Source: Trichuris trichiura (lineage: Eukaryota > Nematoda > Enoplea > Trichinellida > Trichuridae). From it: DNA of 64,000 nt. The DNA is taken from positions 5,440,001 to 5,504,000 of the forward strand of contig JBAJFE010000004.1 of assembly GCA_037903355.1 (NCBI GenBank). The letters are read 5' to 3'. Numbering within the stretch: the first letter of the stretch is position 1; the number at the start of each line of letters is the position of its first letter. The notes under the pieces are model-generated. The model searched no databases. It was not told where the DNA came from and worked only from the letters and a program-made list of their open reading frames with translations. Shown piece by piece: positions 2-19,801 of the stretch. A program made the position numbers and the translations under genes.

Positions 2-2262
2 TTCCCCTTTCCAAAAGGTGAAACCAGGGCTAAGAAACCGATGGAACTAATTCATAGTGACTTGTGTGGGCCAATGCCCGTAGAAACGCCGTCAGGTCAT
101 CGGTATTTTTTAACGCTTATTGATGACTACTCACGATTCACTGATGTTCATCTACTGAAGTCGAAGGATGGAGTCATTAATGCAATCAAAAACTATGTTG
201 CAAAGATGTGCAACCGTTTCGGCCGAAAACCAACGGTATTTCGTTCCGACAATGGTCGTGAGTATGTCACCAAGTTTCTGGAAACTTATTTTAAACTGCA
301 TGGCATCGAGCATCAGCTTACGATTCCCTACACGCCACAACAGAATGGCGTAGCAGAACGAAAGAATCGCACTCTTACTGAAATGGTGCGTTGTATGCTA
401 TCAGACGCTCGGCTGCCAATGCGTTTTTGGGGTGAAGCAGTAGTGACCGCTGCTTACTTGCAGAACAGACTGCCCAGTAGAAGTCTGTCGAAGACACCTT
501 TTGAGCATTTTTACGGCCGTAAACCTGATGTGAGCCACCTTCGCGTGTTCGGCTCCAAAGCTTACAGTTTCGTGCCAACAGAGCGTCGGCGAAAGTTGAG
601 TGAAAGGGCCATGGAAGGAGTGATTATTGGTTACGGTAACACAGTTAAAGGTTACCGAATTCTGGACCCAAAAACGGCTCGTGTCTGGTATAGTCGAAGC
701 GTGCGGATAATTGAAGGCCCCACGCAATCGTGGTCAGACCAGACGAAACACTGGAAAAACTCTCACAGTAAAGGTTCACCGCAAAAGATGGTGAACATGG
801 ACGAATGGAAGGATCACGCTGGAGATAGGTCCTCTAATGTTTTGCCGCCGAAGGAGGACATAAATGCGAAACATGAGGAATCCAGCGATACAGCTTCGGA
901 TGGATCTACACCTGCTCCCGTTGTGGGATTGCGTCGGTCAGAACGTATAGCGGCGAAAGATGAGCGTCGCGTGAGACGGCATTTTTCTGACGACTACATT
1001 TGGAAGGTAGTAGACTGTGATCCGAAGGAACCAGCATCTTGGGACGAGATGCTACAGCTTCCAGCGACAGAACGTGAAAAATGGTTGGAAGCAGTGGATG
1101 CAGAATTAAATGCGCTCGAAAGCCATGATGTTTGGGAAGTTGTTGATCTTCCAGTTGGCAAACGACCAATTTCTGCGAAATGGGTTTTTAAGCTGAAACG
1201 TGACGAGCATGGAAAAATCTACACGTACAAAGCAAGATTGGTGGCCCGCGGGTTCACACAGATACATGGTCGCGATTATGACGAAACGTTCGCTCCGGTT
1301 GTGCGGCATGAGACCGTGCGAACTCTTTTCGCGATCGCTGCCATCAAAGGAATGCACGTACGACACATCGATGTCAAAACTGCATACTTGAATGGTAAAC
1401 TGGATAAGGAAATTTTTATGGAACTACCACCAGGTTTCAAACAACAAGCTACTGAAGGAAAGGCCCTCCGGCTTCATCGCAGTTTGTATGGCCTTAAGCA
1501 GTCAGCACGTACATGGAACCAAGTTGCCACCACAGCTCTGAGAAAAATAGGTTTTCGACCCAATCGTGCTGATCCGTGTCTTTTCTCACGGAAAGAAAGT
1601 AGCAATGCAGTCACATATGTGCTTCTTTACGTTGACGATCTGTTGGTAGCTAGTGTATCACCGGAATTGACTGGCCGTGTCGGACGACAGTTAAGTGGCT
1701 ACTTTGAGATCAAGGATCTCGGTGAGGTAAAACAATACTTAGGAATTCAAGTGGAACGAGAAGAAGACTGTTCGTTTCTTCTCCATCAGGCAAGAAAAAT
1801 TTGCCAGCTAGTAAAGGAGTGTGGATTACTCGATGCAAAGCCAGTAGCCACGCCTATGGAAACAAATTTTTTGTCTTCACCAATAGAAGAGAGTCCGACA
1901 TTGTCTGAAAATGCTGAATTCAGAAAGGCAGTAGGATCTCTCTTGTATTTAGCGGCTGTGTCACGGCCAGACATAGCATTTGCTGTTGGCCAGTTTTGTC
2001 GGCGTGTAGAGTCGCCGACTCAGTTCGATTGGAAATCGGTTAAGCGTGTGATACGCTACCTTGCAGGATCTGTATGCCGGAAATTGCGTTTCTCCTCAGA
2101 AGGAAACATTAAGTTGACGGGTTTTGTGGATGCCGATTGGGCCGGTGACCACGCAGACAGAAAGTCAACTTCCGGTTACGTGTTCCAGATTGGCTACTCG
2201 ACGATTGCTTGGTCGAGCAAGAAACAAAGTATTGTAGCCGTGTCTTCAACTGAAGCAGAATA
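2..2262 (+). pseudogene. copia pol: integrase, reverse transcriptase and first part of RNase H
   Basis: The polyprotein integrates and reverse-transcribes the element. Integrase catalytic residues are visible in HSDLCGP, RSDNGREY and NGVAERKNR (D, D, E). A charged linker then leads to reverse transcriptase, beginning near KWVFKLKRDEHG, with DVKTAYLNGKL and the catalytic YVDD in LLYVDDLLVAS. RNase H follows with FVDADWAGD and SSTEAEY. The frame is open from base 2 (the start is off the window) to the insertion at 2263; after that it runs into the inserted element and stops at 2312-2314. I call it a pseudogene only because of that insertion. Family assignment is very secure. Confidence 0.93.
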
Positions 2263-2641
2263 CCGTATATTACCACGCATAAGAACTCCCCCCTGCGTTA
2301 GCAAAGGATGGTAATGATTGGCCCAGCAACGATGACGTTCATTGCTCAAGTCTAGATCAATTCTGATTTGTCAGTTTTCCGTGAATGCTAGTCGGCCATT
2401 CAATTGAAACTGTCTTGCCCAAAGTGCAACGCAAAAACTGATCAGCTGCTGCTTAGCGCGCGTTGTAGAGCATTGCGTAGGCTACGAGAAATGAATTGTG
2501 TTGAATAGGTTTATTGGACGTCTATTACAACTGTTGCATGTAAAACACGAATGAACAGATTGTAGAAGCGGAAAGAAAGGATACATGACGCCGAAAACAT
2601 TAAGTGCAGTGCCAAAACGGTAAAGCTAACAGTGCTCTTGG

Positions 2642-2920
2642 TCACTGTTTGGCATGTGGTCGTCCTCTGTGTCTTCCAACAGGGCAGAAATGGAGCACTT
2701 TTGGAAAGACTATAACAGTTTCCGTTTTTACTTTGCTCCACGCCTTTATAACGAACTGGCACAGCAAGCTGAGCGATGGAGCTCGCATTCGTCCGCTGGC
2801 TGTGTACGTCTTCTGCCCGTTCGTCATCCATTCTTTCCACTCTTCTCGCACGTAGTCTTTAAAGGGCTTATTAATGCAGACGTCCAGCGGCTGCATAGCT
2901 TTTCCTTTTTCATCGCTCAC
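2642..2920 (-). pseudogene. pogo-type transposase C-terminal fragment, left arm copy
   Basis: This is the mirror copy of the fragment at 4127-4423. It reads MSDEKGKAMQPLDVC, then INKPFKDYVREEWKEWM, matching the QPLDVSINKPFKD-type segment found near the end of DDE transposases of the pogo/Tigger/jerky group. A 2-bp deletion relative to the right arm, near the ETVI residues, changes the frame, so the last ~20 residues differ. No catalytic DDE region and no N-terminal helix-turn-helix are present. It is not functional by itself. Confidence 0.75.
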
Positions 2921-4126
2921 GTGCAGAATGCAATAAGTAAAACTGAAAAATTCTTTGGTTAAGGAAACTTATTCTTCCTTAGTCACATGGTTTTTTCAGT
3001 TGCTACTGAGAGAGTGATACAAAGTGACGCGCGATACGCGGAGACAAATTTAGAAGAAAATGAGGAAAGCAAGTGTGTTCAAACTGTCCCACTACGCCAC
3101 CGTTACGTACGAACTAACGAAGCACAATCGTCCGTAGAAGCAACTTCATCCCACTTTAAGTGCCAAAGGTTAGGTAACACCGCCTAATTTTTACAAGCAC
3201 AAAGCGAACGGAGACGTAAACTGTTCAACAGTTCGGCGAAAGAACAACACATTTCGATCTCATTGGTTACTATCATCTAACATGCCGCGTTACTCTTGTC
3301 TGTCTGATGCAGCAAAGGATGGGAAATCACAGCTCCTTGAAGTTTGATGATAACACGGCGTGACCTCTATCGATGATATCTGTGAGCTCAATCGACGACG
3401 GCTGCACGCTCAGTCGGTGGGTGCTCCTGCAGCTGTAAGTATGCGCAATGGCTGTTGAAGTTTCATGATAACGCTGCGTGACCTTTATCGAGGATGACTA
3501 AAAGCTCGGTTCTGAACGGGCGCACAGTTCTCATCGATTCAGCTAACAATTATCATTGATATAGGTCAAGCAGCGTTATCATCAAACTTCAACAGCCATT
3601 GCGCATACTTACAGGTGCAGGAGCACCCACTGACTGAGCGTGCAGCCGTCATCGGTTGAGCTTACAGATATCATCGATAGAGGTCACGCCGTGTTATCAT
3701 CAAACTTCAAGGAGCTGTGATTTCCCATCCTTTGCTGCATCAGACAGACAAGAGTAACGTGACATGTTAGCTGATAGTAACCAAAGAGGATGAAATGTGT
3801 TGTCCTTTCGCCGAACTGTTGAACAGTTTACGTCTCCGTTCGCTTTGTGCTTGTAAAAATTAGGCGGTGCTACCTAAGCTTTGGCACTTAAAGTGGGATG
3901 AAGTTGCTTCTACGGACGACTGTGCTTCGTTGGTTCAAACGTAACAGTGGTGTACTGGGACAGTTTGAACACACTTGCTTTCCTCATTTTCGTCTAAATT
4001 TGTCTCCACGTATCGCGCGTCACTTTGTATCACTCTCTCAGTAGCAACTGAAAAAACCATGTGACTAAGGAAGAATAAGTTTCCTTAACCAAAGAATTTT
4101 TCAGTTTTACTTATTGCATTCTGCAC

Positions 4127-4423
4127 GTGAGCGATGAAAAAGGAAAAGCTATGCAGCCGCTGGACGTCTGCATTAATAAGCCCTTTAAAGACTACGTGCG
4201 AGAAGAGTGGAAAGAATGGATGACGAACGGGCAGAAGACGTACACAGCCAGCGGACGAATGCGAGCTCCATCGCTCAGCTTGCTGTGCCAGTTCGTTATA
4301 AAGGCGTGGAGCAAAGTAAAAACGGAAACTGTTATAAAGTCTTTCCAAAAGTGCTCCATTTCTGCCCTGTTGGAAGACACAGAGGACGACCACATGCCAA
4401 ACAGTGACCAAGAGCACTGTTAG
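4127..4423 (+). pseudogene. pogo-type transposase C-terminal fragment, right arm copy
   Basis: This is a 98-codon open frame. It contains QPLDVCINKPFKDYV, the Trp-rich EEWKEWM, a TYTASGRMRAPS segment and VKTETVIKSFQKC, followed by an acidic tail. This order is typical of the last ~100 residues of pogo/Tigger-family transposases. The catalytic part upstream is missing: going upstream the same frame hits a stop within about 10 codons. The fragment points toward the right end of the palindrome, so both element ends correspond to the transposon's 3' end. Confidence 0.78.
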
Positions 4424-4788
4424 CTTTACCGTTTTGGCACTGCACTTAATGTTTTCGGCGTCATGTATCCTTTCTTTCCGCTTCTACAATCTGTTCATTC
4501 GTGTTTTACATGCAACAGTTGTAATAGACGTCCAATAAACCTATTCAACACAATTCATTTCTCGTAGCCTACGCAATGATCTACAACGCGCGCTAAGCAG
4601 CAGCTGATCAGTTTTTGCGTTGCACTTTGGGCAAGACAGTTTCAATTGAATGGCCGACTAGCATTCACGGAAAACTGACAAATCAGAATTGATCTAGACT
4701 TGAGCAATGAACGTCATCGTTGCTGGGCCAATCATTACCATCCTTTGCTAACGCAGGGGGGAGTTCTTATGCGTGGTAATATACGGTA

Positions 4789-5829: not shown

Positions 5830-8800
5830 CTAATCAGCAGCTTGCAACAGTAGGAGCTTGTTCACTGATCGGCGAGTTGTGATCAGCGCTAATGCTACGT
5901 CAGCTGAACGAACAACACCATCTTTGCCAGAATAAACTGTACTAATACGACCAAGTGGCCAACTGCCTCTAGGGGTGTTGGAATCCACCAAAACGACAAC
6001 ATCACCAACAGACATTCCGCTCGTTCTTCGTCCACTTTCCACGTCCAATGAGGGATGGGACATACTCCTTCATCCAGCTGCGCCAAAAATGGGTTGCTAG
6101 AGCTTGAGCATACCTCCAGCGTTTGCGGAAAGTAAAGTCGGAATCAGTGAACACATCGGGTGGAAAATTGGGTTGGCTTCGCCCAGTGAGTAGATGGTGA
6201 GGTGATAATACTTCCACTTCGCGTGTTTCTAAGGAGGCGCATGCCAGCGGTCTTCTGTTCAATAGATTTTCGACGTAGCATAATGCAGTCATAAGGATTT
6301 CGTCAGTCAAAGTGCTCTAGTAAAAAATAGCGGTTAGCGCCCGTTTTGCAGATCGGATTAGTGCTTCCCATGCGCCACCCATATGCGGAGCCGCCGGTGG
6401 ATTGAAATACCAACTAACGCGGCGGATCGACAAAGTTTCAGCAATTTTTGCATGGTCTAGTCTTTGAATACATTCTTGTATCTCGCGTTTGGCGCCAACA
6501 ATATTCGTACCATTATCGCTGCAATACGCCGCGGGAGTTCCTCGCCTTTGTTCGAAACGAAAGAACACCGACAGACATGAATCCGTGTCCAAGGTGTAGG
6601 CTACATCGAGGTGCACGGCTCTGGTGGTTAAACAGGTAAAGAGATACGCCCAGCGCTTTACCGTTCGGCGAAAGATATTGACTTCGAACGGTCCGAAGTA
6701 GTCTACTCCGCAATGAGTAAATGCCGGTAAACCGGGAGTCAGATGAAATTTCGGTAATGCTGCCATCCTTGGTGTCTTGGGGAAGGCGTACAGACGTTTA
6801 CACCTAAGACATCGGTTCAATATACGTCGAACAGTCGTACGTCCCTTTGGTATCCAATACAATTTGCGGATTTCGTGGAGTACGATCAGCGGAAGCATGT
6901 GCCAGGCGGTTGTGCGCGTCCCAAATAATTAACTCAGTCAGGCGATGCGTTCGTGGCAGTATAACTGGGTGCCGTGAATCCAGTGGTATGGGGGCGTTTT
7001 CAAGTCGTCCACCGACACAAAGGATTTGTCTGGCATCGAGAAATGGCGTGATTTTGATGAGGCTTGAGTCAGCCGAAAGTTCTCGCTGCCGTCTTAGAGC
7101 AGTTACCTCGTTGGAGTAAGCCTGGTTTTGTGCCTTGCTGACCAAAATCAGGAATGCGTTATCGATCTCTGTAACGTCGAGTTCTGCATGATACTCAAGT
7201 GACTTTGGTCGACGTCGAGCGTTCGAGCAAAAGCGATTGAGATACGCCATTATTCGAATAACACGGGTAAGGCGGAAGACCTTCCACGTCAGAGCTTCGA
7301 TAGGATCAACATCTTCGTTGATTGAGCCGATCCAATCAGTCGCGTAGACTTCGGGATCGTCAACCAGATTCAGTGGCTGGACCACTTCCGGGAGACTCGG
7401 CCATAGGCTCTGATGCCTTAACAAGAAATCTGGTCCAGTATAAAAGAGATGATCTGGCCCCAGATCGGCGGGCTGCAGCCCTCTGCTACAACAATCAGCG
7501 GGATTCTGCCGACCCGGTACGTGATGCCATTGCGTGGGTTTTGAATATTCGTGTATTTCAGCAATACGATTACGTACGTAGGTGTGGAAACGATAGGTCG
7601 TAGAGTAGATCCAGCGGAGGACAGTCGTCGAGTCGACATGAAAATGCATGTCATCAATTTCGATACGCAACTCTTCGCGTATCGTAACTGCTAATCGAAG
7701 TGCCATGAGTGCTCCATTAAGTCCCATGCGCGGCGTGGTAATTGGCTTCAGAGGGGCAACTTTCGATTTTGCCATAAAGAACGACACATGAAAACCGTTT
7801 ACGGTTTCAAAGCGTAGGAAAGCAACTGCACTAAGCCCGATCTCTGATGCGTCACCAAATGTATGCAGCTGGATATTGGTCCAGCGGCAGTTAACTGGAG
7901 TTAGACAGCGGTGGATTGTGATATTCTTAACTGCGGTGAGGGAATCAACCCATCTCGTCCATTGGTCTAAGATGGTATCGGGAAGGTCGTCATCCCACTC
8001 GACTTGGATTCTCCAAATCGCTTGTATCAACAACTTCGCTCGAAGCGTGAGTGGGGCAAAAAATCCTAGTGGATCAAAGATACTGGCTGTAGCCCGCAAT
8101 AGTTGCCGTTTGGTTTTCGCTTCTGGCGGAATCTTAAAATGTGCTACGAAGTCGTCGGTGACGCTGTTCCAACTTAAACCTAAAGTACGCTCAATGGGAA
8201 AAGCATCCAAATCCATATCTGCAGGGTTCGATGGTTCTGTTACATATTGCAGAGAAAACTTGTTCATGCGTCGAACGCCACTGTGTAAGTGGAAAACCAG
8301 CTCTCGTTAAAACCGTGTTTAGCATGTCGGCGATTCCCACGGCTTCTTCCACAGAGCGAAATGATGCCAACCAGTTGTCGACGTAGAAATGATCGACAAT
8401 TTGCGAATGAATTAAACCAGCGGCGTCTCCAGCATCCCTAGCTGCCTGTCGTAAGGCGTAGGCGCACACACATGGAGATGATGTCGCATCAAATATCTGG
8501 ACGCTCATTTGGTATTCACGAGGCTCTTCATGAGTTCCGGGATTCGGCCAGAAGAAACGCAACGCTGAAACGTCTGCTTGTCGTACTCTGACTTGGTGAA
8601 ACATTTTGACGATGTCGGCGGTACACGCATAACGGTAGCGGCGGAAACGTAGCAGTACGCCAACAAGGTTTGCAAGAAAATCAGGCCCTTTCAACAACTC
8701 GGAATTAAGCGAAGTGCCCCGCGATTTAGCAGCAGCGTCAAAAACGACGCGTAATTTATTTGGTTTGTTGGGGTTCAGAACCGGATGATGTGGTAAATAC

Positions 8801-9900
8801 CATGTTCTGCCGATAGGTCTGACATTTGCTTCTTCGGCGGTTAAGACCTTTGCGTGATCGTAACTTGAATATTCCTCTATGACGGCGACGAACATGCCTG
8901 CGAGGTAAGGCTCGTTTATCAGCCGACGCTCCAAAGCATAGAAGCGTTTCAAAGATGTCAAAAGGTTGTCCGGAAGTCTAGGGTGATCCGTTTTCCATAG
9001 TAAGCCAGCTTCATAGCGTTCTCCTGTAAAGTGGATCGTCGTCTCCAGAATTCTTAAGGCGCGTTGCTCATCCGAACTTGCAGTGTTGATTTCCTTTGGC
9101 TGTATGCTGAATGTATCAACGTCGAACAGGCGTTCCATTAGTTCGCTTAAGCTTGGTCGGTCCGGGTTGTTAGCGAGAGTTATGCGGAAGCATTTTTTAG
9201 TATGCGTTTCAATATAAGGAGCAAATGGGCCAACTAAACACCATCCAAACGGTGTTAGTGTGGCGTGCGGAGAACGTGGTCGATCAGGGTCGGTTCTGTA
9301 CTCGATGACCTCATGTGCGGAAGGATTGTCAATGCCGATCAGAACTGTCACTTCTCCACCCGTGAGATTTAATTCGTGTTCAATGTCTCGCAGATATTCG
9401 AAACGGCTCACATCATCTTTTATATCAACGGGTTTGCGATTCAAATGCAGCTTCGGAACTGCATAAGCGTCGTCGACGTTTAGTTCGAATAACCCATCCT
9501 GAGAACGAACAGTGAAGAAAACGCGTCGAACAGTGAACGTCGGATCATTTGCGTGGAAAGTCGTAAAGCGGCACGACTCAGTTGGGCCGGTAAGGTGAAG
9601 TTTATCCGAGAGATCGAGTCTAATCATACTGATTTCGCTCCCCTTATCCAGAAGCGCCATCGCGGGTATCTCATGCCCATCTGTTCCAGCGATCAGCACC
9701 GGAACAATGGGAAGCATGCAAGCCCATTTAGTTCCGCGCGACTTACCCTTAACGGTTCCTGCGAATGGCTTTGTCGGATTTTCTGTAACGCGCGACGCGC
9801 TACACGGTCGCATTGGATAAAGACGTGGAGCGCCGTGAAATAACGGATGATGTAAAGCATTGCAGCCATTCTTACCGCACTGCCGTTTCGAATGGCAATT
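5830..9900 (-). pseudogene. BEL/Pao pol: protease, reverse transcriptase, RNase H, integrase
   Basis: Read from 9900 downward. A zinc knuckle remnant (NCHSKRQCG) is followed by protease (GHEIPAMALLDKGSE), where the usual D-S/T-G triad is D-K-G. Reverse transcriptase has LRVVFDAAAKSRG, ADIVKMFHQV and FYVDNWL; YVDN instead of YVDD is common in Pao. RNase H has HTFGDASEIG and VDSTTVLRWI. Integrase has the motif LYWIPKGR, a CLRCKR pair, GVDYFGPF, SDNGTNIVG and the conserved AAPHMGGAWEALI. Breaks: a frameshift near 8200-8280, another near 6890, an in-frame stop at 6317-6319, and a frameshift near 6010-6060. The frame ends at 5830. It cannot make a complete product. Confidence 0.9.
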
Positions 9901-11631
9901 TCAACTAACGTGATCATTTTCCCAGCAGCGATAACAGCAGTTATTTGCCTTTACAACGTCAGCGCGTTTTTCGATTGGCAACTCACGGAACATCTTGCAA
10001 TATGCAAGTCGGTGATGCCCGTGACAAATAACACATACGCAACGAGAGAATGCTTGAATGGACGGCCCGTCAGAGGTTGGCGATCGTTCGATAGGTTGAG
10101 CCACGGTGGTGTAGACGCCGGGGCGTCGAAACCGTTGTCCGGCATGTCTATGCTTCATTTTATTCTCATCGTCAAAGTCTTCGCTTACCGCTTCAGCGGC
10201 CTCCCTACGCATTTCGAGCCAGTCAGAGAGGTCGCGCAAATTCGGTCGTCGTTGATCGTAGTTTTCCACCACGTGTCGTCCCCAGTCATCTCTAAGACGC
10301 TCCGGCATCTTTTTCACGGCAGCCATGAGATTACCGGCGGATTCAATTTCTACATGATGATTTCCTAGAGAGAGAGTGGCGACGATGCCTTGCAATTCAT
10401 TGCAGAAGGAGCGTAAGCCAGGCAAATCAAAGTCCTTCCAGGTTTGTAGCCCTTCAATAGATTTCAAACAAGCGTGTATGATCCTTTGCGGATTTCCATA
10501 TCTGCGCTCGAGTACGCGCATTAATTCTTCGTAACATTTCGGGTTGTAGAGATATTTTGAAACTGATCTTTTAACGTCGTCGTCCAACAGCTCATGTATT
10601 ATGTTCAAGCGGTCTGTGTCGGACTCCAGAACGACATGCACAGATTGATGGAACGACGTGATGAACGTCGGCCAGGCTCTGCGTTTGCTGTTAAATTTGG
10701 GAATCTCCAGTTTCGGCAAACGACTTGCAAGGAGTGAATGACATGGATGTGACAACTGTATTGTCTGGGCGGTGGGAGCGGATGATCGATGTCCGTCGCA
10801 TTTGTCAGAAGTAAACGGCCTTGGAGCCAGGTACGGTTGAGTCACGTCGGCAGGTAGCGCTGCATTGACATCGGTAGGAACAGCGGGACCTATTGGCAAA
10901 GGTCGTTGGGCAGGAGAAGACCGGTTCCGTGCGCAGGAGGTGGTCTGAAGAACGTCGTGTGAGTGAGACGTTTCATCTTTCTTGCGTGCCCCGTTTACAG
11001 ATAGCCGATGCTGAACCGTATCATCGTAGGAGAACGAACGAGTGCGGTGTGGCTGCAGCTCGTCATTTCTATAAATTGAGCGTTCCTGTTCGTCCAACAC
11101 ATCAATTTCTCGCTTAAGAACTAACTGTTCCAGCTCTTCCCTGAAACGTTCCTGTTCATGTGTCACTTGAAGCTGCCTCTGGCGTTCAGCTTGCTCATGT
11201 TCTAACTTGAGGCGTTCTAGTTCGATCTCCAGAGCCTTTCGTAGGCTATAACGCGCAGCCGCGGCGGAGCTTCGACTGGAGATGACCGAACATGCATCAT
11301 CTGCTCTTTGGAGGAGATGGTGATCGACACGTTCGTGACATGCGGCAGATATGGACAATAAATTCTCACCCCATTTAGTTATTCCTTCGAGATCATCGTC
11401 GGTAGTCATGAACGATCGCATACTGTCATTACATTGCAGGCATAGATCAGTGAGGCTATTCAACGCTGTCACTAAGGAGACGAGTTTTGAACGGCTCAGA
11501 CTGCTGCGTATATGCGCGTTGATTTCTTTTACCATGTTCGTATGCCGGATCTTCAACCTTCTTCTTTCCCTGCGTCGCTCGTCGAGGCTTAAGTCGTTGG
11601 CAACGGTTTCGGTCGATTGACTTGCTGCCAT
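9901..11631 (-). CDS. BEL/Pao gag, ending in an in-frame UGA inside the zinc knuckle
   Basis: The 576-aa product starts MAASQSTETVANDLS. Residues ~20-170 are charged and helical, including a Glu/Arg/Gln-rich coiled coil (LEIELERLKLEHEQAERQRQ). Around residue 305 comes LPKLEIPKFNSKRRAWPTF, the DUF1759-type gag core of BEL/Pao. Near the end are knuckle-like CVICHGHHRLAYC and CYRCWENDHVS. The stop (UGA, 9901-9903) sits between the second knuckle's first Cys pair and its continuation NCHSKRQC, which is in the same frame. Gag and pol were therefore probably one frame, and the UGA may be a CGA-to-TGA change. Capsid formation is the family role. Confidence 0.88.
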   Translation of the reverse strand: MAASQSTETVANDLSLDERRRERRRLKIRHTNMVKEINAHIRSSLSRSKLVSLVTALNSLTDLCLQCNDSMRSFMTTDDDLEGITKWGENLLSISAACHERVDHHLLQRADDACSVISSRSSAAAARYSLRKALEIELERLKLEHEQAERQRQLQVTHEQERFREELEQLVLKREIDVLDEQERSIYRNDELQPHRTRSFSYDDTVQHRLSVNGARKKDETSHSHDVLQTTSCARNRSSPAQRPLPIGPAVPTDVNAALPADVTQPYLAPRPFTSDKCDGHRSSAPTAQTIQLSHPCHSLLASRLPKLEIPKFNSKRRAWPTFITSFHQSVHVVLESDTDRLNIIHELLDDDVKRSVSKYLYNPKCYEELMRVLERRYGNPQRIIHACLKSIEGLQTWKDFDLPGLRSFCNELQGIVATLSLGNHHVEIESAGNLMAAVKKMPERLRDDWGRHVVENYDQRRPNLRDLSDWLEMRREAAEAVSEDFDDENKMKHRHAGQRFRRPGVYTTVAQPIERSPTSDGPSIQAFSRCVCVICHGHHRLAYCKMFRELPIEKRADVVKANNCCYRCWENDHVS

Positions 11632-11778
11632 ATTCGGCTGGGGTACGGTGAGTTAAACGTAGAGCGGTTGCCTCCCACGCGGTGATTAACAGCTGCCGGT
11701 ACGTTGATCGTAATTGCTGCAAACCCATTCAGCAAAGAGCACACGGTAATCGCAAACCTTTCCCGGCCGACGCACTAA

Positions 11779-18507: not shown

Positions 18508-19801
18508 TTGGGTTGTTTCATAAGTTCGTTCCGTTTTCTTTAGAAGTAAATTCTTTTTGTACGCAGTTGCTCTCATGCCAAGCAGTATATATCATTCAAT
18601 ACCTCTCGATGTTATCTGCAAGTTAGTACAGTTAAATTTTAATATCGTGCTCTTGAGAAGTTTCAGCTTAACTGGAAAGATGGAATGTCAGGTCGACGAA
18701 AAGGAGCATCTCCGACACGTGCTGCTTTTCCTGTATAACGGAGGATTAAGTGCTGTCGCACCGGCTGAAAAGATCCAGGCGGTCTACGGGGAAAAGGCTA
18801 TCAGCGATCGAGCAGCTAGAAAGTGGTTCTCCCGCTTCAGGGAGGGAAATTTTGATCTGAGTGACAGTGCGAGGTCAGGGAGGCCAAGCGATTTTGATGA
18901 AGAGAGACTGAACGCCCTAGTGCACGAAGATCCACGACAGTCGACACGCGAACTGGCTGAGAAGGTTGGCTGCAGTCATGTGACTGTGAGCCGACATTTG
19001 CTATCTATGGGAAAGGTACAGAAAATGGGATTATGGGTGCCACATCAGCTGGGTCGAGATGACAAAATTCGGCCCGTTTCTGGCGCAGGTTCTCTTCTCG
19101 CTCGATACCGTCAAGCCGTGACCCAACGTCGCCCATTCTTTAGCCAGATCATCACAGGTGACGAGAAGTGGTATCTGTTCGTCAACATAAAACAAAGAAA
19201 GGAGTGGCTGAATCATGGTAAGGATACAACCCCGCGTGCGAAGCCCAAATTGCACGAACGAAAGACTATGCTGTCCGTCTGGTGGGATTGTGAGGGTGTT
19301 ATACATTTCGAATTGCTTCCAAAGAACCAGACTATCACCGCCACAATTTATGTGGAAAAATTACGACGTTGGCGAGCGCAGTTCAGCAGAAAAGGCAAAA
19401 GAAGCAACATGACATCATGCTGCAGCACGACAATGCCCGACCGCACACAGCAATAATCACAAAAACAGCCTTCCAAGAACTCGGATGGGAGGTGCTTCCT
19501 CATCCGGGTTATTCTCCTGACCTCGCTCCATCCGACTATCACCTTTTCTGTTCGCTTGCTGTCAATTTGCGCGGTGTTTCCTTCAACAATGACGAAGACC
19601 TCCAAAAATGGCTCTCCGACTTCTTCTCCTCCAAACCCCCGCATTTCTACCGACGCGGGATAGAACAGCTGGCCAGTCGTTGGGAAGAAGTCGTGAATAG
19701 TGAAGGGGAATACATTGTTGACTAAAGAGTTTGTATTTTCGATGGAAAGAATTAAGTTAAAGTAGTCGATAAAAGCGGAACGAACTTATGAAACAACCCA
19801 A
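18508..19801 (+). mobile_element. mariner transposon, full length (1294 bp)
   Basis: The ends TTGGGTTGTTTCATAAGTTC (18508) and its reverse complement (to 19801) match over about 27 bp. TA flanks both ends (18506-18507 and 19802-19803). Size, TIR length, TA target and a D34D-type transposase all fit mariner. It inserted 39 bp downstream of the stop codon of the AT-hook gene, so it probably lies in that gene's 3' UTR. Confidence 0.93.
18680..19725 (+). pseudogene. mariner transposase with one frameshift
   Basis: The N-terminal half starts MECQVDEKEHLRHVLLF and has two helix-turn-helix segments (AARKWFSRFREGNFDLSD; STRELAEKVGCSHVTVSRHL) and the WVPHQL linker. The catalytic domain shows ITGDEKW (first D), LQHDNARPH (second D) and YSPDLAPSDYHLF (third D), followed by FYRRGIEQLASRW and the stop at 19723-19725. 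The frame changes at about 19360-19420, between VEKLRRW and the second D. One indel therefore separates this copy from an intact ~345-residue protein. Confidence 0.92.

Follow-up and report, generated by a model that had tools for sequence, protein, structure and literature searches.

Published Passer elements of the pogo superfamily, as described in passages of PMC9976928 and PMC7386202, measure 1.6–4.0 kb and carry one transposase gene and terminal inverted repeats (TIRs) mostly shorter than 30 bp. Here we compare with them a 2524-bp palindrome that interrupts a copia retrotransposon of Trichuris trichiura, together with its relatives in a genome assembly of 72.7 Mb and 62 contigs. The palindrome lies in a stretch of 64,000 nucleotides (contig JBAJFE010000004.1, positions 5,440,001 to 5,504,000; G000:C9:5440001-5504000 in our coordinates), referred to as the window and numbered from its first letter. 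The likeness to Passer consists in the domains BrkDBD, HTH_Tnp_Tc5 and DDE_1, the catalytic spacing DD35D and the TA duplication. In contrast to Passer as described in those passages, the inverted repeat of the window family takes in the whole element, transposase exons are found in both arms, and an apparent intron is present; neither short TIRs nor a single transposase gene was found in the family. On domain content, DD35D spacing and TA target, we assign the family to the pogo superfamily as a palindromic variant of Passer type and not as a standard Passer element. The explanation that we favour, with a probability of about 70%, is that an old palindromic family of Passer-type pogo elements, with conversion in some copies, includes the window element as a non-autonomous member.

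Among nematode elements, Tc4 of Caenorhabditis elegans has a comparable fold-back structure, with long arms and a short loop, and in Tc4v the transposase is found in one arm only. The Tc4 target is given as CTNAG, with duplication of TNA, in passages of PMC11071193, whereas TA flanks every scored copy of the window family and the CTNAG/TNA pattern was not found in them. The pogo ‘Type 4’ elements of insects, unclassified in the relevant passages of PMC7386202, share with the window family the superfamily and long inverted repeats, but their TIRs, although very long (392–856 bp), are much shorter than the ~2.3-kb arms considered here. The same passages mention ‘one or two ORFs’ (open reading frames) per element and contain no account of two transposase genes arranged as a palindrome.

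Long inverted repeats are also shared with Tetris (PMC4079207), Tm1 (PMC3169594) and Galileo (PMC3573991), which belong to other superfamilies (Mutator-like, P). Tm1 and Galileo include coding members, and in two of three complete Tetris copies a grouping of TIR repeats is reported and interpreted as possible homogenisation. For foldback forms it has been proposed (PMC4079207) that the transposase was lost while the TIRs became longer, whereas in the window family the transposase lies within the arms. Like Foldback elements, the window family consists mostly of long inverted arms. Engineered ‘sandwich’ transposons comprise two inverted complete copies, the outer ends of which bound a unit that moves as one; the window family, by contrast, is natural and appears old, and no inner tip was recognised at its centre. 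No description of a palindromic transposon with two transposase genes was recognised in searches of open-licence PMC text, which is no proof of absence.

The window element and its family of ends

An earlier note, made from the letters of the window alone, had described a ~2.5-kb palindrome with TA flanks inside copia, inserted without a lost base. Comparison with the genome bears out this description. The palindrome occupies positions 2263–4786 and has TA on each side (2261–2262 and 4787–4788), the span noted before (2261–4788) being the element with both TAs. The left copia flank has eight other matches in the genome, of which the best three were read. In these copia paralogues (loci L063–L065) the left flank is 97–98% and the right flank 98–99% identical, and the two flanks overlap by exactly two bases, so that a single TA stands at the empty site. 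Because the flanks adjoin there and overlap only by TA, the insertion in the window is clean.

Alignment of the inverted repeats divides the element into a left arm (2263–3506, minus strand), in which the transposase strand is directed from centre to tip, 34 nt that separate the arms (3507–3540), and a right arm that mirrors the left (3541–4786, plus strand). The arms are covered by two inverted repeats, I2 (2254–2714/4335–4795, 99%) and I1 (2711–3506/3541–4336, 96%). The earlier characterization as near-perfect needs correction as to the distribution of the likeness, which is not uniform: the outer ~775 bp contain one mismatch and one 2-bp gap, and two successive 200-bp blocks further inward differ by 7% and 4%. 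A residual C-terminal transposase frame, matching the end of DDE_1 (Pfam E 1.9e-7, profile 114–177), is present in the right arm at 4121–4423 (plus strand), where the exon-2 match corresponds to G000:C9:5444148-5444420. Its left-arm counterpart at 2629–2901 (minus strand), the bounds of which were set by mirroring, approximately mirrors 4148–4420; according to the arm alignment, this residual sequence is 2 bp shorter in the left arm. The central 527 nt are predicted to fold at −278.5 kcal/mol, compared to −69.6 ± 4.6 kcal/mol in 100 shuffles. Near the centre, an 81-nt repeat recurs with a spacing of 118 nt, and copies differ in length by ~118 bp. Such variants in the centres of L048, L040, L043 and L044 are consistent with one more unit of the central repeat, and L048 appears to carry one on both sides.

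The 26-base tip of the element, searched with up to 3 mismatches, was found in 33 forward and 32 reverse places, and a reversed-pattern control gave none. Altogether 56 of these 65 ends form 28 convergent pairs less than 12 kb apart, compared to a mean of 0.17 and a maximum of 2 in 2000 random placements; among other neighbours, the opposite order (minus, then plus) occurs three times and same-strand order never. Nine ends remain without a partner, one of which (on contig C11) pairs with a tip detected by a 15-mer only (L060, 1.9 kb). Pair lengths are concentrated at 2.51–2.64 kb (19 pairs) and 4.32–4.79 kb (six pairs). Two longer pairs, on C24 (8.7 kb) and C28 (9.0 kb), look interrupted, and the 4.1-kb pair at C30:67011 is a short copy, one arm of which carries an insert of ~1.57 kb next to an 8-bp repeat. 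TA is present on both sides in all 22 copies with both tips read (19 copies including L039, plus L060, L061 and L075; L066, in which one tip is missing, is not among them). The suggestion of a mobile foldback family is supported by the genome search for its end, the pogo-type assignment with a TA target is likewise strengthened by these flanks and by the BrkDBD, HTH_Tnp_Tc5 and DDE_1 domains of the long copies, and the contrary picture raised by the earlier note, in which all other copies would be one-armed, does not agree with the convergent pairs.

Long copies, short copies and the mirrored deletion

Six long copies of 4.3–4.8 kb were detected. The four that were read (L047, L048, L059 and L075) are all palindromes, and L059 is 97.5% self-complementary across its whole 4.5 kb. 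Arms of long copies carry exon 1 and exon 2 sequence on the outward strand, with the frame open in some cases and broken in others. L048 has an open exon 1 of 150 aa in each arm and an open exon 2 (253 aa) in the left arm only. In L059 the open frames are exon 1 of the right arm (163 aa) and exon 2 of the left arm (253 aa), while L047 has an exon-2 frame of 249 aa in the right arm. Exon-2 matches are present in both arms of L075 and of the two unread long copies. Each element therefore comprises two divergent exon sets in an inverted repeat that covers the whole arm. In Pfam, exon 1 of L048 and of L059 matches BrkDBD and HTH_Tnp_Tc5, and exon 2 of L048 matches DDE_1; in L048 the second and third D are separated by 35 residues, i.e. 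DD35D. The best three transposase homologues carry the names of Trichuris muris, T. suis and T. trichiura, and the named homologues include POGK proteins.

Five open exon-2 frames were compared for signs of constraint. Six comparisons between two subfamilies gave dN/dS of 0.16–0.19 (dS 0.42–0.47), and four comparisons within subfamilies gave 0.27–0.37. The second subfamily is represented by L054, inside a palindrome, and by L067, a truncated arm. The long palindromic copies are the likely coding source of the window element, in line with the suggestion of the earlier note that an autonomous copy with the same end would identify the source. Its alternative proposal, that two 3′ ends had fused, is right in that both termini correspond to the 3′ end of the transposase; the fusion is family-wide and was not formed at this insertion.

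Compared with six arms of three long copies, the short arm lacks the stretch between positions ~634 and ~1641, a loss of 999–1013 bp. GGCTGCA and GGCTGTA repeat at the join as short microhomology. The join is identical in both arms of short copies, including the one in the window, where it is represented by a 21-mer at 2879–2899 (minus strand, shared bases 2888–2895) and at 4148–4168 (plus strand). Of 20 loci examined, 14 (the window, L039–L046, L049–L052 and L054) contain the exact 21-mer in both orientations. The other six, namely the long copies L047 and L048 together with L053, L058, L060 and L061, lack it; the alignment nonetheless continues through the join in both arms of L053, L058 and L061, and L060 is more heavily deleted. 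The window copy can accordingly be described, from these comparisons, as a non-autonomous derivative of the long palindromic form with a mirrored deletion. At 2.5 kb it exceeds the few hundred bp of miniature inverted-repeat transposable elements (MITEs) and is non-autonomous through deletion.

Movement as a unit and age of the design

Three short copies on different contigs (L049, L050 and L051) differ by 0–0.2% in their left arms and 0–0.6% in their right arms, while left and right arms within each copy are 3.7–3.9% apart over the outer 640 bp. The arm tree groups these copies by side, with support of 100/98 and 100/99. Because these copies share diverged arms at three different sites, we conclude from their sequences that the palindrome transposes as a unit; the earlier note had already proposed such movement, and the grouping of left arms with left and right arms with right speaks for it.

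To assess the age of the design, the exon-2 protein was used as a query. Among the best 150 of 603 candidates, 155 matches were obtained, of which 121 were used and merged to 109 places, after 29 C-terminal fragments of short copies and 5 others had been dropped. Neighbouring exon-2 places less than 8 kb apart form at least 37 divergent pairs and no convergent or same-strand pairs, and paired members reach down to 50–60% protein identity with the query. As a control, 144 of 150 DDE_1 matches gave one divergent, one convergent and four same-strand neighbours; six members of the palindrome family had been removed from it by name, and older ones may remain. Since divergent pairing holds for related exons down to ~50–60% protein identity, the palindromic two-gene design looks old. 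The older copy L066 has arms 92% alike and is 82–83% identical to L059. Palindromic copies that are older still, L068, L072 and L073 (on C41, C53 and C19), retain two arms with exon 2 but have an exon-1 block inverted beside one exon 2, and equal gene spacings on C28, C39 and C53 (1684–1687) and on C19, C25 and C47 (1455) hint at further subfamilies.

A non-palindromic source was not seen in the loci read, among them four of the 35 unpaired exon-2 places. Candidates for a single-unit ancestor were rejected as follows: L057 ends just beyond the palindrome centre, L067 and L069 both end within the arm, L068 is an old rearranged palindrome with arms 77% alike, and L055, on C28, represents the left arm in a pair that was interrupted. 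No relic of a 5′ tip was recognised at the centre, the best non-tip match to the 26-base tip in L057 having 10 mismatches. The pair at C60:85487/88623 was rejected as an example of the same design and belongs to another DDE_1 family. At this locus (L074, G000:C60:84700-89900), two head-to-head units are 98.9% alike over 2336 bp with ~280 bp between them, and repeats that resemble the outer ends are also present close to the inner ones; L074 may resemble a stage that precedes a true palindromic element.

Arm likeness and competing explanations

The mean distance between arms is 2.4% within a copy and 3.8–4.2% between copies (20 copies, L039 included). With L039 excluded, 5 of 19 copies (the window, L041, L046, L048 and L059) have two arms that are each closest to the other, and an arm tree of 20 copies, with L066 added and L039 dropped, has supported arm pairs in L046, L048, L059 and L066. 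Bases found in exactly two of 38 arms (19 copies) are shared within the same copy in 29 cases and between different copies in 16, where 2.7% within the same copy is expected at random; in the four long copies the corresponding counts are 96 and 5. Mismatches per 200 bp, from tip to centre, are 0, 0, 0, 1, 7 and 4% in the window, 0, 0, 0, 0, 0 and 7% in L046, and 8, 2, 0, 2, 8 and 6% in L054, and are almost zero throughout L048. These patchy mosaics fit occasional, partial gene conversion from arm to arm.

The full form is a ~4.5-kb palindrome, each ~2.3-kb arm representing one unit ordered from centre to tip as 5′ region, exon 1 with BrkDBD and HTH_Tnp_Tc5, apparent intron, DDE_1 exon and 3′ end. 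Its two transposase genes are directed outward, with the same 3′ end observed at both ends of the element, and the transposase presumably cuts at the two identical tips, so that the whole palindrome moves into TA. In the short form, ~1.0 kb was lost at the microhomology, a loss eventually present in both arms; its spread is evident from the copies, and the transposase was presumably supplied in trans. Arms of some copies may overwrite each other, as suggested by the arm trees and mosaics, and such conversion would preserve the match between the tips; through it a deletion could also be copied into the opposite arm. A further-reaching version of this scheme, a natural autonomous DNA transposon that is palindromic throughout and in which conversion, in the manner of Y-chromosome palindromes, keeps the two transposase genes and the two ends alike, making it a self-templated mobile element that has lasted through several subfamilies, is put forward only tentatively and is by our estimate rather doubtful.

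Several observations weigh against the favoured explanation. In 14 of 19 copies the arms are not both nearest to their own partner, and 18 of 35 inner branches are open in the arm tree, in which bootstrap values had not yet stabilised. The arms of L075 are 6.4% apart, one of them being 3.9% from L047; those of L047 are 2.6% apart, one being 2.0% from L048; and those of L061 are 8.1% apart. Likeness between arms could also stem from polishing of the assembly. Nor has conversion preserved two intact genes, as seen in L059 with a different open exon in each arm. The intron is predicted from breaks in the frame and from a GT donor that follows exon 1, and 35 of the 109 exon-2 places are unpaired.

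A palindromic family could also exist with its mirrored deletion and arm likeness produced by damage and repair of an extruded hairpin, or by gap repair after excision, which we consider unlikely. The single microhomology deletion, placed identically in the two arms, is in agreement with such repair, as are the very stable fold of the centre, the homogenisation of L048 nearly through its centre, and the lack of any of the 28 end pairs at ~3.5 kb, the length expected for one long and one short arm. However, mosaics with separate tracts of likeness suit conversion better than re-synthesis of a whole arm, and an asymmetric centre is retained in most copies.

It is more improbable still that an ordinary single-unit pogo element exists, from which palindromes arise repeatedly as separate accidents by 3′-end fusion or fold-back copying. 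Separate origins would also make the arms of L046, L048, L059 and L066 mutually closest, and L048 has none of the asymmetric sites of the window. Opposed to this is the recurrence of the same centre: the central 461 bp are found in at least 29 places at 93–100%, some of them partial, among the best 40 of 69 candidates, and relatives at 81–85% still align better in one orientation (e.g. C1:7635044, 497 versus 393 bits). At the 33 sites where the inner half-arms of the window differ, window-type asymmetry was counted in the same versus the reversed orientation, giving 5:0 in L059, 5:1 in L066, 8:0 in L054b, 12:2 in L075, 9:1 in L047, 13:6 in L052, 17:5 in L054, 13:4 in L061 and 0:0 in L048. The diverged arms of L049–L051 at three sites and the lack of a single-unit element among the loci read also argue against repeated formation. 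The asymmetry supports a single origin followed by homogenisation, with few sites in the case of L066.

That the palindromes are assembly or library artefacts, generated by turn-around at hairpins, is scarcely credible: the copy at C6:1009625 (L039) does stand in a mirror that runs on through 3.85 kb of flanking sequence at 99%, as far as the contig end, and contig C30 has mirrored element pairs, but the 300-base flanks read for the 17 other copies are unrelated (22–31% identity), and TA on both sides together with arms several per cent apart exclude simple mirroring. At the end of C6 (G000:C6:1005774-1015997; L039, L070 and L071), the palindromic copy is the axis of a mirror in which the final ~5 kb match the ~5 kb before them at 99%, which is likely a turn-around at the contig end, and L039 may be half artefact. 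On C30 (G000:C30:67011-118307), element pairs are mirrored about ~93.4 kb in a 118-kb contig, which suggests a large inverted duplication or an assembly fold.

Two further features of the window were noticed by eye. Long frames beside the copia copy at 6317–11652 (minus strand) resemble those of a BEL/Pao retrotransposon, and a 310-aa frame at 18524–19456 (plus strand) resembles a mariner transposase.

Instability is expected of long near-perfect palindromes, and a transposase is often missing from foldback transposons. A body that is palindromic as a whole, with a transposase gene in each arm, is an unusual design for a DNA transposon. Here the coding form itself is a palindrome, present at many sites and split into subfamilies with constraint on the transposase. 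The family offers a multi-copy system in which gene conversion inside palindromes can be gauged, and an example of a non-autonomous family arising from a mirrored deletion. Furthermore, a palindrome of this kind within a transcribed gene could yield hairpin RNA.

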